DNA of 64,000 bases from Coriobacteriaceae bacterium EMTCatB1. GTDB lineage: Bacteria > Actinomycetota > Coriobacteriia > Anaerosomatales > Anaerosomataceae. Below are positions 37,298 through 48,493 of the stretch, piece after piece; position 1 is the first letter of the stretch; every line of letters starts with the position of its first letter. Below the pieces are notes generated by a model. It saw only the letters and a list, made by a program, of their open reading frames with translations. It did no database searches and was not told where the DNA came from. The DNA lies in the NCBI GenBank assembly GCA_001950395.1, contig BDLO01000001.1, positions 595,979 through 659,978 on the forward strand. The letters are read 5' to 3'. Position numbers and translations under genes: made by a program.

Positions 37298-38214
37298 GCG
37301 CCACCGACGACGCTGCGCTCGTGGACGCCTTCTTGGCTCACCTGTCCACGGTCAGGAACGTGTCTCCTGCTACGGTGAGGGCGTACGCGACCGACCTCGC
37401 GCAGTTCGTGGCGTGGTGCGAGCGCAGAGGCATCTCCGCCTCCGACGCGACCCGCCGCGACCTGCGCGCCTACCTCGCTGAGCTGGCCGCCGCCCGGTAC
37501 GCGAAGACGACCGTCGCTCGCAAGCAGTCCTCGCTCAGGTCGTTCTACGCCTACCTCGTGGACGCCGACCTCACGGCACGCGACCCCGCTGCTGCGATGC
37601 CATCGGTCAAGATACCCGAACGGCTCCCTCCGGCTGTGCCGGCCGACCTCGTGGCACGGCTGCTCGAGCTTCCCGACGTGACGACCCCTCGCGGCCTTCG
37701 CGATCGAGCCATCCTCGAGCTCGCGTACGCCACAGGCGCCCGCGTCGCGGAGATCTCCGGCCTCGATGTAGGCGACGTCGACCTAGCGAGCGGACAGGTC
37801 CGCCTGTTCGGCAAGGGCTCGAAGGAGCGCATCGTGCCGCTGCACCGGCTCGCCGTCCAGATCCTCAGGGCGTACCTCCGCGATTCGCGCCCGAAGCTGC
37901 TCAGAGGCCGGCAGGAGGACGCGCTGTTCGTCGGGCGACGCGGTCATCGGTACTCCACGAACAGCATCCGCCGCATGCTTGCTGGCTACCTCGAGTCCCT
38001 CGCCGTCGAGACCGGGCTCACTCCGCACGACATCCGGCACGCATTCGCGACGCATTTGCTCGAATCGGGTGCGGACCTTCGGACCGTCCAGGAGCTCCTC
38101 GGGCACGTTGCCCTGTCGACGACCCAGATTTATACTCACGTGAGCATACGGAGGCTGCGCGAGGTGCACGAACGTGCACATCCGCGCGGCACACAGGAGG
38201 GGCGTCCTGGATGA
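37294..38214 (+). CDS. xerC: Tyrosine recombinase XerC/XerD
   Basis: This 306 aa recombinase has an N-terminal SAM-like DNA-binding domain (1-95) and a catalytic domain with all key residues: Arg in YATGARVAEISG, Lys in FGKGSKERIVPL, HxxR in TPHDIRHAFATHLL, His in LLGHVALSTTQ, and the nucleophile Tyr in IYTHVS. It would resolve chromosome dimers at dif. XerC is preferred over XerD because the gene follows trmFO, as in Firmicutes. The GTG at 37294 overlaps trmFO and the stop overlaps the sigma-factor ATG. Confidence 0.9.
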   Translation: MSATDDAALVDAFLAHLSTVRNVSPATVRAYATDLAQFVAWCERRGISASDATRRDLRAYLAELAAARYAKTTVARKQSSLRSFYAYLVDADLTARDPAAAMPSVKIPERLPPAVPADLVARLLELPDVTTPRGLRDRAILELAYATGARVAEISGLDVGDVDLASGQVRLFGKGSKERIVPLHRLAVQILRAYLRDSRPKLLRGRQEDALFVGRRGHRYSTNSIRRMLAGYLESLAVETGLTPHDIRHAFATHLLESGADLRTVQELLGHVALSTTQIYTHVSIRRLREVHERAHPRGTQEGRPG

Positions 38215-39005
38215 AGCAGCAACCCGTGAGCGACATCGAGCGCTGCTGGGCTGCATACAAAGAGACCGGCGATCCCGAGGCCCGTGAGAAGCTGATACTG
38301 AACTACTCGCCCCTCGTGAAGTACGTCGCGGGACGCCTGTCGTCCAATCTGCCTCAAACGGTCGATACGGCAGACTTGATCTCCTACGGCGTCTTCGGGC
38401 TCATCGACGCCATCGACAAGTTCGAACCCGAGCGCGGCATCAAGTTCGAGACGTACGCCATCGCTCGCATCAAGGGAGCCATCATCGACGAGCTCCGCGC
38501 GCTCGACTGGGTGCCCCGGTCCGTGCGTGCACGAGCGCGGGACATCGAGAACGCCTACGTCGTGCTCGAGAACCGCCTGAAGCGCGTGCCGACCGACGCG
38601 GAAGTGGCGGCCGAGCTCGGCATCTCGCTCAAGGAGCTGGACGACTTGCTCGCCCGGCTCTCGTACACCTCGGTGGTCTCGTTCGAGGAGCTGTGGTCGG
38701 GGCGGGACGACCATGACGACCGAAGCTCTCAGGGCGCGTCCGCGATCAAGGACCATCGGGCAGAGGATCCCGTCGAAGTCTACGAAAGCAAGGAGCTTCG
38801 ACAGATCCTCGCTGAGGCGATCGAACGGCTGCCAGAGAGGGAGCGAGCGGTCGTCACGCTGTACTATTACGAGGGACTCACCCTGAAGGAGATCGGCACC
38901 ATCCTGGGTGTGACGGAGTCCCGAGTGAGCCAGCTCCACACCAAGGCGGTCCTGCGGCTGAGAGCTCGCATCCGCGCCGCCCAGGGTCTGGCTCCCGCGG
39001 TGTGA
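38211..39005 (+). CDS. FliA/WhiG-family sigma factor
   Basis: This 264 aa sigma-70-family factor matches the FliA/WhiG group. Region 2 includes LIDAIDKFEPERGIKFETYA and the hallmark DELRALDWVPRSVR; a region 3 and a region 4 helix-turn-helix (LKEIGTILGVTESRVSQLHTKA) follow. A charged linker (about 160-185) lies between regions 3 and 4. WhiG controls sporulation in Streptomyces and FliA motility elsewhere; neither set of target genes is in the window. The ATG overlaps the xerC stop, and a response regulator follows within 16 bases. Confidence 0.9.
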   Translation: MKQQPVSDIERCWAAYKETGDPEAREKLILNYSPLVKYVAGRLSSNLPQTVDTADLISYGVFGLIDAIDKFEPERGIKFETYAIARIKGAIIDELRALDWVPRSVRARARDIENAYVVLENRLKRVPTDAEVAAELGISLKELDDLLARLSYTSVVSFEELWSGRDDHDDRSSQGASAIKDHRAEDPVEVYESKELRQILAEAIERLPERERAVVTLYYYEGLTLKEIGTILGVTESRVSQLHTKAVLRLRARIRAAQGLAPAV

Positions 39006-42336: not shown

Positions 42337-42894
42337 ATGTCTGTGAAGGATCTCGCCGAAGCGAAGGACCACATGCGGAAGGCGGTCGCTGCGCTCGCGC
42401 ACGAGTTCGCGGGAGTGCGCACTGGACGCGCATCCGGAGCCATACTCGAGAAAGTCACCGTCGAGTACTACGGGACCCCGACGCCGCTCAACCAGATCGC
42501 GTCAGTGAGCGTCCCCGAGCCGCAGTTGCTGGTCATCACGCCGTACGACCGAAGCGCGCTCGGCGCCATCGAGAAGGCGATACTGGGATCTGATCTCGGG
42601 CTTACCCCGTCCAACGACGGGCAGGTCATCCGCCTTCCGTTCCCGCCGCTCACCGAGGAACGGCGCAGGGAGCTCGTCAAGCTGTGCAGGCAGTATGCCG
42701 AAGAGGCTCGGATCGCGGTCCGCAACATCCGCCGAGACATCAACGACCACCTCAAGCGCCAGGAGAAGGACGGGGAGATCTCGCAAGACGACTTGCGTCG
42801 TCTCGAAGCTGAGGTCCAGAAGGAGACCGATGCGCACATCAAGGAGATCGACGAGCTCCTGAAGCGCAAAGAGCAGGAGATCATGGAGGTCTGA
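42337..42894 (+). CDS. frr: Ribosome recycling factor
   Basis: This 185 aa protein splits post-termination ribosomes with EF-G. It shows the typical three-helix bundle with the inserted beta domain: FAGVRTGRASGAILEKV, VEYYGTPTPLNQIASV, a VITPYDRSA segment and the late VRNIRRDINDHLK region. GAGGAGG precedes the ATG at 42337, overlapping the end of pyrH. Length is exactly that of the family. Confidence 0.97.
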   Translation: MSVKDLAEAKDHMRKAVAALAHEFAGVRTGRASGAILEKVTVEYYGTPTPLNQIASVSVPEPQLLVITPYDRSALGAIEKAILGSDLGLTPSNDGQVIRLPFPPLTEERRRELVKLCRQYAEEARIAVRNIRRDINDHLKRQEKDGEISQDDLRRLEAEVQKETDAHIKEIDELLKRKEQEIMEV

Positions 42895-42898
42895 CCTC

Positions 42899-43672
42899 GT
42901 GGCTGACCGAGCCGCGCTCGAGGCGTTCTTCTCCGCCAAGAGGGACCGCGAGCTGCTCGCGGAGCTCAGGCTGGACCGCATCCCGCGTCACGTCGCCATC
43001 ATCATGGACGGCAACGGCCGCTGGGCGGCCAAACGCGGGCTGCCCCGCGTCGCAGGCCACCGAGCCGGAGTGAAGGCCATCAGAGAGACGATACGAGCGG
43101 CCCTCGAGCTCGGTATCGAGGTCTTGACCGTCTACTCCTTCTCGACGGAGAACTGGCGAAGACCTGCAGACGAGGTCTCTCACCTGATGGATCTCTTCGT
43201 CGAGGTGCTGCACCAGGAGACTACGACGCTTGCGGAGCTCGGCGTCCGCGTGCTGGTCATCGGCCGCCGAGACGGTCTTCCTGAGCGCACCGCCGCGGCG
43301 TTCGAGCGGGCGGAGAAGGAGACCGCGAACAACGACCGGCTCACCTACGTCGTCGCGCTCAACTACGGAGGGCGCCAGGAGATCGTGGACGCCGCCAAGG
43401 CCATCGCCGCGCAGGTCGCCGAGCGGCGTCTCGACCCGTCGAAGATCGACGAGCACGTCGTTGCCCGACACCTGTACACCGCCGACCTTCCGGACCCCGA
43501 CCTGCTCATCAGGACGAGCGGCGAGATGCGCGTCTCCAACTTCTTGCTGTGGCAGATCGCCTACAGCGAGATGTGGGTGACTTCGACGCTGTGGCCGGAC
43601 TTCGACCGCCACGACCTGCTTCGGGCCGTCCTCGACTACCAACGCAGGTCACGACGGTTCGGGGGGCTGTAG
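42899..43672 (+). CDS. uppS: Isoprenyl (undecaprenyl) diphosphate synthase
   Basis: This 257 aa cis-prenyltransferase extends farnesyl diphosphate to the polyprenyl carrier for cell-wall synthesis. It has HVAIIMDGNGRWA with the catalytic Asp, AGHRAGVKAI, TVYSFSTENW, and the C-terminal PDLLIRTSGEMRVSNFLLWQ. The GTG at 42899 lies four bases after the frr stop. Its substrate pathway (dxr, ispG) is encoded immediately downstream. Confidence 0.96.
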   Translation: MADRAALEAFFSAKRDRELLAELRLDRIPRHVAIIMDGNGRWAAKRGLPRVAGHRAGVKAIRETIRAALELGIEVLTVYSFSTENWRRPADEVSHLMDLFVEVLHQETTTLAELGVRVLVIGRRDGLPERTAAAFERAEKETANNDRLTYVVALNYGGRQEIVDAAKAIAAQVAERRLDPSKIDEHVVARHLYTADLPDPDLLIRTSGEMRVSNFLLWQIAYSEMWVTSTLWPDFDRHDLLRAVLDYQRRSRRFGGL

Positions 43673-43673
43673 C

Positions 43674-44492
43674 GTGGCGGGCAAGCGACCCCTCAAAGAC
43701 TTCTGGATCAGGACCGCCTCGGCTCTGGCGATCGGCGCCGCGTTCCTCACAGCGATCTTCTTCGGCGGCCCGCTCGGCCTCGCGGTCGTGTGCGCAGTTG
43801 TCGGCGCGCTGTCCGCCGTCGAGCTCTTCGCCTTGTTCCGCCGCGAGCACCGGCTCCCCAACGAAGTCTTCGGGATCGCGGCCGTGGTCGCGATGCCGTT
43901 CGCCGCAGCCACGCACGGACTGGCCGGGCTTGGAGCCGCCTTCGGGGCCCTCATCGTCGTGTCGCTCGCGTGGCACCTCGCATTCCCGCAGGTGAAGGCG
44001 TCCGACACAGCCGCGACCGTGTTCGGCGCCGCGTACGTCGGGTTCTCGCTCGCGCACCTCGTCCTCATCCGACAGCTTGATGCCGGCACGGAGCTCGTCG
44101 TGGCCACCGTCGCCAGCGTGTGGGCGAACGACAGCTTCGCGTACCTCGTCGGCTCGACCTTCGGACGCCACAAGATGGCGCCGTCGATCTCGCCGCGCAA
44201 GTCGTGGGAAGGCTTCGCAGCGGGCACGCTGTTCACCACGGCCGTGTGGGTCATCGTCGGGACCGTCTCGGACATCGGGCTCCCTGTCGGCGCGATGGCC
44301 GCCGTCGGGCTCGCTGCGTCCTTTGCGGCCGTGCTGGGCGACCTCGCCGAATCGCGTCTCAAACGAGAAGCCGACGTCAAAGATTCCGGTCGGCTGCTGC
44401 CCGGCCACGGCGGATTCCTCGACCGGTTCGACAGCATGATCGTGGTGTCCGTCGTCGCGTACTACGCCCTGATCGCGGTAGGCGCCAGATGA
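43674..44492 (+). CDS. cdsA: Phosphatidate cytidylyltransferase
   Basis: This 272 aa polytopic membrane enzyme makes CDP-diacylglycerol from phosphatidate and CTP. About seven to eight hydrophobic segments precede the CDS signature, SPRKSWEGFAAG and then GDLAESRLKREADVKD with LPGHGGFLDRFDS near the C-terminus. The GTG at 43674 lies one base after the uppS stop. The stop overlaps dxr. Together with plsX this completes key phospholipid steps in the window. Confidence 0.94.
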   Translation: MAGKRPLKDFWIRTASALAIGAAFLTAIFFGGPLGLAVVCAVVGALSAVELFALFRREHRLPNEVFGIAAVVAMPFAAATHGLAGLGAAFGALIVVSLAWHLAFPQVKASDTAATVFGAAYVGFSLAHLVLIRQLDAGTELVVATVASVWANDSFAYLVGSTFGRHKMAPSISPRKSWEGFAAGTLFTTAVWVIVGTVSDIGLPVGAMAAVGLAASFAAVLGDLAESRLKREADVKDSGRLLPGHGGFLDRFDSMIVVSVVAYYALIAVGAR

Positions 44493-45625
44493 TCCGCATC
44501 GCAGTGCTCGGCTCCACCGGCTCCATCGGCCGGCAGACCATCGAGGTCGCTCAGCGGTTCCCCGACCTGGTGCGCGTCGTAGCGCTCGCCGCGAATCGGT
44601 CGGTCGACAAGCTCGTGTCTCAGGCGCGTGCCACCGGCGCCGCCTCTGTTGCAGCTGCCGACGAGTCCGCAGCGCGACGGCTTCGCGAGGAGCTGCCAGC
44701 GGTCCACGTGTCGAGCGGCTCCGAGGGCGTGGCCGCCCTTGCGGCTCTCGACGAAGTAGACGTCGTCGTGAACGCCCTCGTCGGCGCAGCGGGTCTGCGC
44801 GCAACGGTGACGGCGCTTCGATCCGGCAAGCGCTTGGCGCTCGCCAACAAGGAGTCGCTGGTCGTGGCAGGGGAGCTCGTGATGCCGCTCGTGCGTTCAT
44901 CTGACGCGCTGCTGCCCGTCGACAGCGAGCACTCCGCCATCTTCCAGTGCCTGGAAGGGGAGCGGCGCGATCGGGTGGCCCGCATCTGGCTCACCGCCTC
45001 GGGCGGGCCGTTTAGAGGATCGAGCCGCGAGGATCTGGCTCAGGTCACCGTGGAGCAGGCGCTTCGCCACCCGCGGTGGTCGATGGGGCCGAAGATCACC
45101 GTCGACTCAGCCACCCTCATGAACAAAGGGCTTGAGACCATCGAGGCGCATCACCTCTTCGGCGTCCCGTACGAACACATCAGAGTGGTCGTACACCCGC
45201 AGTCCTGCATCCACTCGATGGTCGAGTTCGCTGACGGCAGCGTGAAGGCCCACCTTGGCGCCACTGACATGCGGATCCCGATCCAGTACGCCATAAGCTA
45301 CCCGGACCGATGGGAAGCCCCGGTTCCTCCGGTCGACTTCGCTGCTCTCGGACGGCTCGACTTCGAGGAGCCCGATCGAACGGCTTTCCCGTGCCTGGAT
45401 CTCGCCCTCGAGGCAGGCAAGACGGGTGGGACCATGCCGGCCGTGATGAATGCCGCCAACGAGGTCGCCGTGGCTGCGTTCCTCGATCATCGCATCGGCT
45501 TCCTCGACATCCCTCGCGTCATCGAGGGTGTGATGGCGCGGCACGATCCGTTCAGCGCCGCCACCATCGAGGAGATCGAGTCCGTCGACTCGTGGGCCAG
45601 GTCCCAAGCAGAGGGTATCCTCTAG
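44489..45625 (+). CDS. dxr: 1-deoxy-D-xylulose 5-phosphate reductoisomerase
   Basis: This 378 aa NADPH-dependent enzyme makes methylerythritol phosphate in the MEP isoprenoid pathway. It has VLGSTGSIGRQT, ALANKESLVVAG, LLPVDSEHSAIFQ, the ASGGPFRG loop, and KITVDSATLMNKGLE. The ATG overlaps the cdsA stop. ispG lies two genes downstream. A structured 45-base hairpin lies directly after its stop, before rseP. Confidence 0.96.
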   Translation: MIRIAVLGSTGSIGRQTIEVAQRFPDLVRVVALAANRSVDKLVSQARATGAASVAAADESAARRLREELPAVHVSSGSEGVAALAALDEVDVVVNALVGAAGLRATVTALRSGKRLALANKESLVVAGELVMPLVRSSDALLPVDSEHSAIFQCLEGERRDRVARIWLTASGGPFRGSSREDLAQVTVEQALRHPRWSMGPKITVDSATLMNKGLETIEAHHLFGVPYEHIRVVVHPQSCIHSMVEFADGSVKAHLGATDMRIPIQYAISYPDRWEAPVPPVDFAALGRLDFEEPDRTAFPCLDLALEAGKTGGTMPAVMNAANEVAVAAFLDHRIGFLDIPRVIEGVMARHDPFSAATIEEIESVDSWARSQAEGIL

Positions 45626-45628
45626 ACT

Positions 45629-45673
45629 GAGGGCTCCTGGCACTGGGATTGCTCAGTCGCTGAGAGGAGCCTC
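45629..45673 (+). promoter_or_regulatory. Imperfect hairpin between dxr and rseP
   Basis: GAGGGCTCCT (45629-45638) can pair with AGGAGCCTC (45665-45673), with one bulged G. Inside it ACTG (45642-45645) can pair with CAGT (45654-45657). A TTGGACTG follows. It could be a weak terminator or a leader structure of rseP; the sequence alone does not decide. Confidence 0.4.
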
Positions 45674-45689
45674 TTGGACTGAAAGGACG

Positions 45690-46937
45690 GTGTCGTTGTC
45701 TGGCCTCGACGCGGTGTTCTGGGGCATCGTGACCTTCTCCATACTCGTGGTGCTGCACGAAGGCGGCCACTTCCTGGTGGCGCGCGCCTTCGGCGTGAAG
45801 GTCCACGAGTTCATGATCGGGCTTCCCGGACCTGCTCTTCGCATCCGCGGCAAGAAGACCACGTATGGCGTCACGGCGGTGCCGTTCGGAGGGTACGTCC
45901 GCATCGCCGGCATGGAGCCAGGCGAGGAAGACCCGCTCTTGGCGCACGCCATCGCCGTCGTCAAGGAGCGCGGCTCGATCACGGTTTCCGAGCTCGGGCG
46001 TGCGCTCGGCGTCGACCGCGAGAGAGCTTCCGACATCGCTTCCGTGCTCGAGGACTGGGGAGCTCTCGTTAGAGGCGACGACCACTCGCTTGCGCTTGCG
46101 GAAGGTCTCGACGCGCGCAGACCCGCTTCCGAGCTTCTCGCTTCGGTGCGAGCGCACACCTACCGTGGTCTGTCGACGCCCAAGCGCATCGCTGTGCTCT
46201 CGGCAGGCGTCGTCGCGAACATCCTCGCAGCGATCCTCGTCTTCACGTTCGTGCTCGCAGCCTTCGGCACGTACGAGCCCAGCCTCACCCTCGAACAGGT
46301 GCAACCAGGATCCCCGGCCGCGGCCGCGGGCCTGCGCGCCAACGACACGCTGCTCGCCCTCGACGGCAAGCGCCTGGAAACGTGGGAGGAGTTCCAGCAA
46401 GCAGTAGCGTCGTCGAAGCCCGGCCAACAGGTGCGCGTGGAATTCGAACGTGACGGGGCCCGTCAGAGCACCACGGTCACGCTCGGCGAGGCGGACGGCC
46501 ACGGCTTCGTCGGCGTGCGCGTCGGACTCACGAAAGTGCGCTACTCCGTGTGGAAGGCGTTCTCGCAGAGCCTCGTGTGGACCGGCCTCGTCTTCAAAGC
46601 GATCGTGGGATTCTTCCGTCCTGACACGTTCGCCCAGTCCGTCAGCAACGCGCGCAGCGTCGTCGGCATCAGCGTCATGGCGGCTGACGCCGCGAAAGCC
46701 GGCCCGCTCGATTACGCCTGGCTCGTCGCGCTCCTCTCGCTGTCCCTCGGCGCCATGAACGTCATGCCGATCCCTCCGCTCGACGGTGGCAAGATTGCGT
46801 TCGAGGTCCTGCAGCGCGTCACGGGCCGCCCGTTCGGGCGCCGCCTGACCACCGCGGTCACCGTCGCAGGCGCCGCTCTGCTGTTCTCGCTGATCGGGTA
46901 CCTCGTGTACTCCGACATAGTCCGTTTGGCGGGGTAG
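45690..46937 (+). CDS. rseP: RIP metalloprotease RseP (site-2 protease) with an inserted helix-turn-helix-like segment
   Basis: This 415 aa intramembrane zinc protease cuts membrane-bound regulators. The catalytic HEGGH (23-27) lies in the first membrane segment, followed by PFGGYVRIAGMEPGEE (65-80). A PDZ domain spans about 196-282, and NVMPIPPLDGG (357-367) holds the third metal ligand. Unusually, residues 82-157 form an inserted segment resembling a winged helix (ITVSELGRALGVDRERASD), where most members run straight to the next membrane helix. The start may be GTG 45690 or TTG 45696; AAAGGA is better spaced for the TTG. It lies between dxr and ispG, a common order. Confidence 0.9.
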   Translation: MSLSGLDAVFWGIVTFSILVVLHEGGHFLVARAFGVKVHEFMIGLPGPALRIRGKKTTYGVTAVPFGGYVRIAGMEPGEEDPLLAHAIAVVKERGSITVSELGRALGVDRERASDIASVLEDWGALVRGDDHSLALAEGLDARRPASELLASVRAHTYRGLSTPKRIAVLSAGVVANILAAILVFTFVLAAFGTYEPSLTLEQVQPGSPAAAAGLRANDTLLALDGKRLETWEEFQQAVASSKPGQQVRVEFERDGARQSTTVTLGEADGHGFVGVRVGLTKVRYSVWKAFSQSLVWTGLVFKAIVGFFRPDTFAQSVSNARSVVGISVMAADAAKAGPLDYAWLVALLSLSLGAMNVMPIPPLDGGKIAFEVLQRVTGRPFGRRLTTAVTVAGAALLFSLIGYLVYSDIVRLAG

Positions 46938-46945
46938 GAGTGGCC

Positions 46946-48016
46946 ATGGCATCCCGCGTCTCACGGCAGGTGCTCGTCGGCAACGTCCCGATCGGCGGCG
47001 GCGCACCCGTCGTCGTCCAGTCTATGACGAACACCGACACGCGCGACGCCGCTGCGACGCTCGCTCAGATCCAGCGGCTCGCCGACGCAGGGTGTGAGAT
47101 CGTGCGCGTCGCAATCCCGCGGTCGGACGCCCTCGACGGCTTCGCTGCAGTGTGCGAGTCCTCGCCGCTTCCCGTGGTCGCGGACGTCCACTTCGACCAC
47201 CGGCTGGCCATCGCTGCAATCGCCCGGGGCGCAGCGAAAGTCCGCATCAACCCGGGCAACATCGGTTCACTCGACCGCGTGGACGCCGTCGTCGACGCTG
47301 CCGCATCGGCGGGGATCCCGCTCCGGATCGGCGTCAACGCGGGCTCGCTCGCTCCTGAGTACCGCGACGCAGACTGGCCGCTCGAGGAGAAGCTCGTCGC
47401 GAGCGCCGTCGCGTTCTGCGAGCACGTCGCGTCGCGCGGATTCGAGGACATCGTCGTGTCAGCCAAGGCGTCGTCGGTTCTGGCGACCGTTGCTGCCTAT
47501 CGCCGCCTGGCGCAAGAGGTCCCGTACCCCCTGCACCTCGGCGTGACGGAGGCCGGCACCGCGTTCTCCGGAACGGTGAAGTCCGCCGTCGGGCTCGGCA
47601 TCCTCCTCGAAGAAGGCATCGGGGACACGATCCGCGTCTCCCTCACAGCGGATCCCGTCGAGGAGGTCGCCGTCGCCTGGGAGATCCTCGCCTCGCTCGA
47701 CCTCAGACGCCGCACGCCAGAGCTCGTGTCGTGCCCGACCTGCGGCCGTTGCGAGGTCGACCTCGTCCGGATTGCGAGCGAAGTCGAGCGGCGGCTGCGT
47801 TCCATCCAGGTCCCGCTGAAAGTCGCCGTCATGGGCTGCGTCGTCAACGGTCCCGGCGAGGCACGAGAGGCGGACGTCGGCGTGGCGGCAGGTCGCGGGG
47901 TCGGCCTCGTGTTCCGCCGCGGCGAGCCGGTCCGCAAGGTGGGGGAGAACGAGATCGTCGACGCGCTTTTCGCCGAGATCGACACGATCGTTCGGGAGCG
48001 AGCCGCCCACGAGTGA
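46946..48016 (+). CDS. ispG: 4-hydroxy-3-methylbut-2-enyl diphosphate synthase IspG
   Basis: This 356 aa iron-sulfur enzyme performs the penultimate MEP-pathway step. It shows the N-terminal TIM barrel (VVVQSMTNTDTRDA, VVADVHFDHRLA, KVRINPGNIG) and a C-terminal 4Fe-4S domain with SCPTCGRC and MGCVVNGPGEAREAD. The ATG at 46946 follows GGAG by five bases; a GTG at 46940 is less well placed. The single-domain bacterial form is typical. Electron donors are not encoded nearby. Confidence 0.96.
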   Translation: MASRVSRQVLVGNVPIGGGAPVVVQSMTNTDTRDAAATLAQIQRLADAGCEIVRVAIPRSDALDGFAAVCESSPLPVVADVHFDHRLAIAAIARGAAKVRINPGNIGSLDRVDAVVDAAASAGIPLRIGVNAGSLAPEYRDADWPLEEKLVASAVAFCEHVASRGFEDIVVSAKASSVLATVAAYRRLAQEVPYPLHLGVTEAGTAFSGTVKSAVGLGILLEEGIGDTIRVSLTADPVEEVAVAWEILASLDLRRRTPELVSCPTCGRCEVDLVRIASEVERRLRSIQVPLKVAVMGCVVNGPGEAREADVGVAAGRGVGLVFRRGEPVRKVGENEIVDALFAEIDTIVRERAAHE

Positions 48017-48025
48017 CACCGCGTT

Positions 48026-48054
48026 TTGCGAGCGTCGAGCGGCGCTGGTATCCT
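48026..48054 (+). promoter_or_regulatory. Candidate promoter for the Rossmann protein and proS
   Basis: TTGCGA (48026-48031), a 17-base spacer and TATCCT (48049-48054) lie 32 bases before the ATG at 48086. It would start a transcript separate from ispG. Confidence 0.55.
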
Positions 48055-48085
48055 TCACGCAACGCACCGCGGTCTGGGAGGAACC

Positions 48086-48493
48086 ATGTCAGCAGAGAAG
48101 GTACGCGTCGCCGTCGTCGGAGGGGGAAGGACTGGCGCGCCGCTCATCGAGGCGCTGCTCAAGCTCCCGTACGTGGAGGTCGTCGGCATCGCCGACAAGA
48201 ATCCTGAGTGCACCGGCGCGCGGATAGCTCGTGAGCGCGGCATCTTCTTCACCGAGTACCCGGACGTCCTCACCGCGAAGGGGTCCGAGATCGACGTCGT
48301 CATCGAGGTCACCGGCGACCCGACCGTGAAGCCAGCGCTCAAGCGCGCGTTCGCCCTCCAAGGCAACACGACGACGATCATCGTCCACGACCTCGTGGCG
48401 CGTCTGATCTTGAGCCTCGCCACCGGGGCCGACCACCTGGTGGAGACGTATCATCCGCACGACAAGGGGATCGGGTCCGTCGCGAACGGCTGA
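48086..48493 (+). CDS. Stand-alone Rossmann-fold NAD(P)-binding protein of unknown function
   Basis: This 135 aa protein is a single Rossmann domain. The dinucleotide loop reads VAVVGGGRTGAPLIEALL. An acidic residue (Asp37) at the end of the second strand suggests NAD rather than NADP. The segment DVVIEVTGDP resembles that in Gfo/Idh or homoserine-dehydrogenase N-terminal domains. There is no catalytic or substrate domain, so it may be a redox sensor or a subunit. The C-terminus is His-rich (HLVETYHPHDKG). It has its own promoter candidate and lies upstream of proS. I do not recognise a named family with certainty. Confidence 0.7.
   Translation: MSAEKVRVAVVGGGRTGAPLIEALLKLPYVEVVGIADKNPECTGARIARERGIFFTEYPDVLTAKGSEIDVVIEVTGDPTVKPALKRAFALQGNTTTIIVHDLVARLILSLATGADHLVETYHPHDKGIGSVANG

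Follow-up and report, generated by a model that had tools for sequence, protein, structure and literature searches.

A winged-helix domain predicted in the first cytosolic loop of the site-2 protease RseP of Coriobacteriia

Results

The window, i.e. the whole stretch of 64,000 nucleotides that was analyzed, contains a gene for the site-2 protease RseP, which lies in a conserved housekeeping neighborhood and shows the following features:

42337..48013, forward strand: conserved housekeeping neighborhood frr - uppS - cdsA - dxr - rseP - ispG (Pfam RRF, Prenyltransf, CTP_transf_1 and GcpE; dxr by sequence reading)
45690..46937, forward strand: rseP, site-2 protease, 415 aa (TIGR00054, PF02163 and PDZ matches)
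45756..45770, forward strand: HEGGH (residues 23-27), zinc-binding active-site motif in TM1 (from the sequence)
45798..45905, forward strand: membrane-reentrant (MRE) beta-sheet (residues 37-72) with GGYVRIAG at its end (AlphaFold2 strands 38-43, 49-53, 58-62 and 68-72)
46176..46265, forward strand: TM2 (residues 163-192; AlphaFold2 helix and hydropathy)
46266..46541, forward strand: a single extracytoplasmic PDZ domain (residues 193-284; PF13180 at 4e-14, PF17820)
46758..46790, forward strand: NVMPIPPLDGG (residues 357-367), second zinc-ligand motif in TM3 (from the sequence)

The ORF begins with GTG, with a TTG at 45696 as an alternative start. Its product matched TIGR00054 with 203.5 bits against a curated cut-off of 147.55 and contains Peptidase_M50 and PDZ domains according to Pfam. 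Judged by its sequence, the protein is RseP, a group I site-2 protease, and intramembrane cleavage of substrates is its predicted activity. Residues H23, E24, G26 and H27 of the first zinc motif and N357, P360, P362, P363, D365, G366 and G367 of the second were invariant in an alignment of 73 homologues, and an MRE beta-loop has been described (PMC7728848). Elsewhere in the window, a sigma factor with regions 2, 3 and 4 (38211-39005, forward strand) is encoded upstream of frr-uppS-cdsA-dxr-rseP, and a small ORF of 155 aa (48026-48493, forward strand) between ispG and proS contains a Rossmann-type NAD-binding domain with weak matches to DapB_N and GFO_IDH_MocA.

Between the MRE beta-loop and TM2, the RseP of the window carries approximately 72-75 extra residues, so that its sequence runs from GMEPGEED through this additional segment to TYRGLSTPKR. 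In contrast, relatives from Acidaminococcus and other organisms outside the Coriobacteriia read GG[YF]N[RK][IM]AGMEPGEED and then at once ..F..(K)P.W.R. Since these insert-free relatives pass from GMEPGEED straight to F..KP.W.R, the insertion point lies directly after GMEPGEED. The loop, taken from GGY up to the AG..N motif of TM2, spans 105 residues in the window protein versus 32 to 43 in most insert-free relatives, and solved RseP structures have no counterpart for the residues between about 84 and about 158. The inserted segment comprises the following parts:

45933..46157, forward strand: inserted domain, residues 82-156 (missing from relatives with GMEPGEED joined to F..KP.W.R; AlphaFold2)
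45939..46097, forward strand: winged-helix core with H1 84-94, H2 99-106, H3 110-122 and wing strands 126-128 and 134-136 (AlphaFold2, MarR_2, Foldseek)
46017..46055, forward strand: equivalent of the recognition helix (residues 110-122), acidic (charge over 73 homologues)
46047..46058, forward strand: L-x-D-W motif at the end of helix 3 (residues 120-123; L in 69/73, D in 67/73, W in 61/73)
46125..46151, forward strand: linker helix (residues 146-154) from the domain to TM2 (AlphaFold2, conservation)

The net charges around the insert were +1.0 for residues 33-81, +3.0 for residues 157-168 and +2.9 for the TM3-4 loop, whereas the N-terminus (-0.5) and the PDZ domain (-6.1) were not basic. Following the positive-inside rule, the basic flanks of the insert and the non-basic N-terminus and PDZ side place the insert in the cytosol. 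This agrees with the topology of group I site-2 proteases, as far as it is conveyed by the topology work cited in PMC9672952, and with the cytosolic position of the C1N region of a group I enzyme (PMC7728848).

Structure prediction with AlphaFold2 gave a folded domain both for the insert alone (73 aligned sequences; pLDDT 90.3, pTM 0.82) and in full-length RseP (pLDDT 91.8, with values of 91-97 across most of the insert). In the model, the segment consists of three helices, a wing and the linker to TM2, and the N- and C-terminal dimerization helices of the MarR family are absent. A Foldseek search of the PDB with the insert returned MarR regulators as the best matches (prob 1.00, TMq ~0.62), with the FtsK gamma domain 2ve8 also among the matches (TM 0.75, by target length). 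The Pfam MarR_2 profile scored 27.3 bits (E=4e-6) for the isolated insert and 24.0 bits in the whole protein, compared to a cut-off of 27.0, and matched 23 of the 73 family members at E<=0.1, with TrmB, FtsK_gamma and IclR helix-turn-helix profiles next. The MarR_2 E value and the retention of the fold over about 70 aligned species argue that the insert is a genuine domain and not a chance resemblance, and the model identifies it as a winged helix of a broad MarR-like kind. Thus, what a sequence-only reading of the locus had proposed, a winged helix-like insertion at residues 82-157 in a cytosolic loop of RseP, was borne out by the predicted fold, the MarR matches of Foldseek and the MarR_2 profile, by the basic flanks, the non-basic N-terminus and PDZ side and the group I topology, and, within one residue, by the loop comparison with insert-free relatives; the alternative of an unstructured loop fails against a segment that is predicted as folded on its own (pLDDT 90).

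An origin from the FtsK gamma domain was raised by the common (E)EDPLL start and by FtsK profile matches, but was set aside because GMEPGEED is ancestral RseP sequence, which also accounts for the shared EED start, and because MarR domains match equally well or better. The FtsK gamma profile PF09397 reached 20.8 bits (20.7 in the genome search), below its gathering cut-off of 30.6, and the hhalign probability for the insert was 91.4% with MarR versus 86.5% with FtsK gamma, the latter over 56 columns. Hence, these matches do not single out a nearer ancestor of the insert.

The mean pairwise identity was 30% for the insert, 32% for the PDZ domain, 49% for TM2 and TM3-4 and 66% for the MRE region, indicating that the constraint on the insert is about that on the exposed PDZ domain. 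L120, D122 and W123 were strongly kept, as were the core leucines, and the LLxxAR of the linker helix, which ties the insert to TM2, and the TYRG that follows were also conserved. The tryptophan of helix 3 is not a feature of the aligned FtsK gamma domains, nor general in the MarR set, and may mark an interface.

The insert is acidic, with a net charge of -7.4 +/- 2.7 that was negative in 72 of the 73 sequences (99%), and with a net charge of -5.0 for the winged-helix core. The matched domains in Coriobacteriia had net charges of +2.0 (FtsK gamma, a basic DNA-binding domain that shares the winged-helix fold) and +0.8 (MarR). Over the 73 homologues, the mean charge of the recognition helix (residues 109-121) was -1.71 compared to +0.04 in MarR domains of related genomes, and that of the wing was -2.75 compared to +1.35; the basic D-x-R wing of these MarR domains was absent from the insert. 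However, the RseP PDZ domain has a negative mean charge as well (-6.1), albeit with a wide scatter, so that acidity alone is no signature.

When the whole class was searched, 289 of 298 Coriobacteriia genomes yielded an RseP, and direct reading showed the insert in 23 of the 25 families sampled (f1-f10, f12-f14 and f16 in the order of the window, and f17-f25); in neither of the other two, f11 and f15, was a complete RseP found. In a phylum-wide draw the insert profile matched all 38 Coriobacteriia genomes, and neither this draw nor the measurement of loop lengths revealed the insert in RseP elsewhere in the phylum. The best matches of the profile outside the class were mostly either FtsK-sized open frames (about 700-870 aa) or small frames of regulator size. 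A spread beyond the class was rejected, as the eight outside matches that were checked all lacked HExGH and corresponded to FtsK, IclR-/DeoR-like regulators and a methyltransferase-like protein. RseP proteins beyond the Coriobacteriia were mostly encoded by ORFs of 350-400 aa without the insert, and in a scan of genome contigs, which gave the view of other phyla, the measurable non-Coriobacteriia loci, L049 not among them, mostly had a 33-residue loop and no insert; at L052 and L057, where the motif mis-measured the loop, the sequences read GMEPGEED..GF or have no room for the insert. The insertion noted in the sequence-only reading is hence real and missing from the RseP proteins seen outside the Coriobacteriia, so that it is no general part of all RseP proteins; neither is it the peculiarity of one genome, being class-wide with a single inferred origin.

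Four genomes from three genera of family f20 (L250, L262, L263 and L264) encode an RseP without the winged helix. In a quick RseP tree built without the insert columns and without bootstrap, in which some inner forks stay open, the Coriobacteriia formed one clade (98% SH-aLRT) and the four insert-free genomes one nested clade (97%). On this tree, a gain at the base of the class and a single later loss are the two changes that the distribution of the insert requires, which suggests that the winged helix was acquired once in the Coriobacteriia ancestor and kept nearly everywhere since. As the f20 clade still has the protease after losing the domain, the winged helix is dispensable for RseP in these organisms. 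Between the PDZ domain and TM3, on the extracytoplasmic side, their RseP has a longer stretch of acidic, low-complexity sequence.

The reverse situation was found in family f19, whose RseP proteins (~353-374 aa; L072, L073, L095, L108, L112, L115, L117, L119, L121, L122, L124, L126 and L127) kept the winged helix, the M50 core and the catalytic motifs, while the PDZ domain is missing: Pfam detected none in the three members scanned, and the remaining members are equally short. Since this family lost the PDZ domain and kept the winged helix, the latter is not a PDZ accessory.

In other actinobacterial lineages the same loop of RseP holds unrelated extra sequence, low-complexity or probably helical, as in L233 and L234, which have a 103-residue loop, and in L195, L196, L214 and L217. 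From these sequences the loop looks like an insertion hot spot.

Discussion

The RseP proteins of E. coli, Kangiella and Aquifex share with that of the window the TM core, HExxH, the MRE beta-loop, NxxPxPxLDGG and PDZ, in sequence as well as in fold. However, they have two PDZ domains and no domain between the MRE beta-loop and TM2, whereas the Coriobacteriia protein combines one PDZ domain with a cytosolic winged helix. The fold and the MarR_2 profile match are common to this domain and the MarR family, but the insert differs from MarR proteins in being acidic, in lacking a basic wing and dimerization helices and in being set in a membrane protein. Among PDB entries, the B. subtilis RasP-EcsA model 9a6w came closest to the full model (E=1.6e-24). 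To our knowledge no winged helix occurs in RasP, which has extra sequence of its own in the same loop. RasP is a site-2 protease that requires its partner EcsA (PMC10128001); an EcsAB-like partner was discarded for the enzyme studied here, as EcsB (PF05975) was not found in the genome searched. A literature search, which covered few subscription papers and leaves an earlier mention possible, yielded no paper on a winged helix in a site-2 protease or on RseP of Coriobacteriia. The winged-helix domain of Coriobacteriia RseP thus appears to be a real, undescribed variant of a well-known enzyme.

On balance we think it probable that the insert acts as a docking module for proteins on the cytosolic side, next to the active-site loop. 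According to this proposal, a group I site-2 protease in the Coriobacteriia ancestor would have received a winged helix in its first cytosolic loop. The domain would hang there by a short N-terminal link and the C-terminal linker helix, between TM2 and the MRE beta-sheet, which presents the substrate to the active site. With its acidic face and its L-x-D-W edge, it would dock a cytosolic partner or the cytosolic juxtamembrane part of substrates and would thereby recruit or position them at the protease. Candidate substrates are N-in single-pass proteins, among them anti-sigma factors and remnant signal peptides, which carry basic residues in this juxtamembrane part. RREs are winged-helix-like in fold and bind leader peptides. 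The RRE has been called a peptide-binding domain (PMC12710340). Moreover, the C1N region and the MRE beta-loop, which neighbor the insertion site, bind substrate on the cytosolic side (PMC7728848). Similar to what we propose for the insert, the group III protease SpoIVFB has a cytosolic accessory domain, and the interdomain linker that is joined to this CBS domain packs on the cytosolic part of Pro-sigma-K (PMC11486902), although the CBS domain lies at the C-terminus and differs in fold, and group III enzymes are without PDZ (PMC10202637).

The other readings of the domain differ in what it would contact. It might pack on the cytosolic face of its own protein, limiting access to the MRE beta-loop and TM2 or rigidifying them, and bind nothing else. 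The direct connection of the domain to the MRE beta-sheet on one side and TM2 on the other, the confidence of the full-length model across the junctions (mean pLDDT 88-97 for residue blocks within 61-190) and the conserved linker helix and TYRG are in line with such a gate or brace, but one clade has lost the domain cleanly and the domain evolves about as fast as the exposed PDZ domain, so that we consider this function rather unlikely. Alternatively, the domain could be a near-neutral passenger, inserted by chance into a loop that tolerates extra sequence and retained through inertia, as the unrelated extra sequence in the same loop elsewhere (L195, L214, L217, L233 and L234) and its loss in one clade would allow; its retention through the whole class with one loss seen, the intact fold and the conservation of L-x-D-W despite a mean identity of about 30% make this improbable. 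The sequence-only reading had also envisaged a module that recruits a substrate, a partner or a promoter. Its first two options are compatible with the docking proposed above, whereas the third would imply a DNA-binding domain tethering RseP to a promoter or the nucleoid. Such a role is suggested by the MarR_2 score (27.3 bits against the cut-off of 27.0) and by MarR and FtsK gamma as the nearest folds. However, the net charge is negative in 72 of 73 sequences, the recognition helix (-1.7) and the wing (-2.8) are acidic, the basic D-x-R wing of MarR domains in related genomes is missing, and the domain is single, without dimerization helices, all of which renders DNA binding very improbable and disfavors promoter recruitment.

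The choice of substrates by site-2 proteases remains an open question, and work on group I enzymes has so far centered on the extracytoplasmic PDZ domains and the substrate-contacting elements at the membrane. A class with an added folded domain on the cytosolic side, directly next to the active-site loop, one clade without it and one family without PDZ form a natural deletion set for studying the cytosolic contribution. In addition, a DNA-binding fold has apparently been turned into a part of a membrane protease that faces proteins. A bolder extension of the docking proposal, which we hold to be possible though not likely, is that RseP throughout the class has a built-in cytosolic receptor, in which the repurposed winged helix would read a cytosolic signal and command proteolysis from inside, and that one family relies on this inner domain after the loss of PDZ. 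If true, the signal might be a peptide, a partner protein or a sigma/anti-sigma complex, and this control from inside would contrast with the PDZ domain, which acts as a filter on the extracytoplasmic side.

With respect to possible substrates in the same genome, the locus L238:1090-2708 (G000:C1, ~911 kb) holds an ECF-type sigma factor followed by a single-pass ORF (L238:1692-2708). The product of this ORF combines a motif similar to HxxxCxxC (AHCETCAEC) with one TM, predicted at about 103-134, and a juxtamembrane stretch that is basic, PASMPARWRWQGWERR (+3), and is by these sequence features a plausible candidate substrate of RseP. As it had no Pfam match, the designation as an anti-sigma factor is our inference. 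A second candidate pair of a sigma factor and a downstream single-pass ORF is located at L240:1015-2482 (G000:C1, ~1779 kb), where the downstream ORF showed a weak match to DUF5667.
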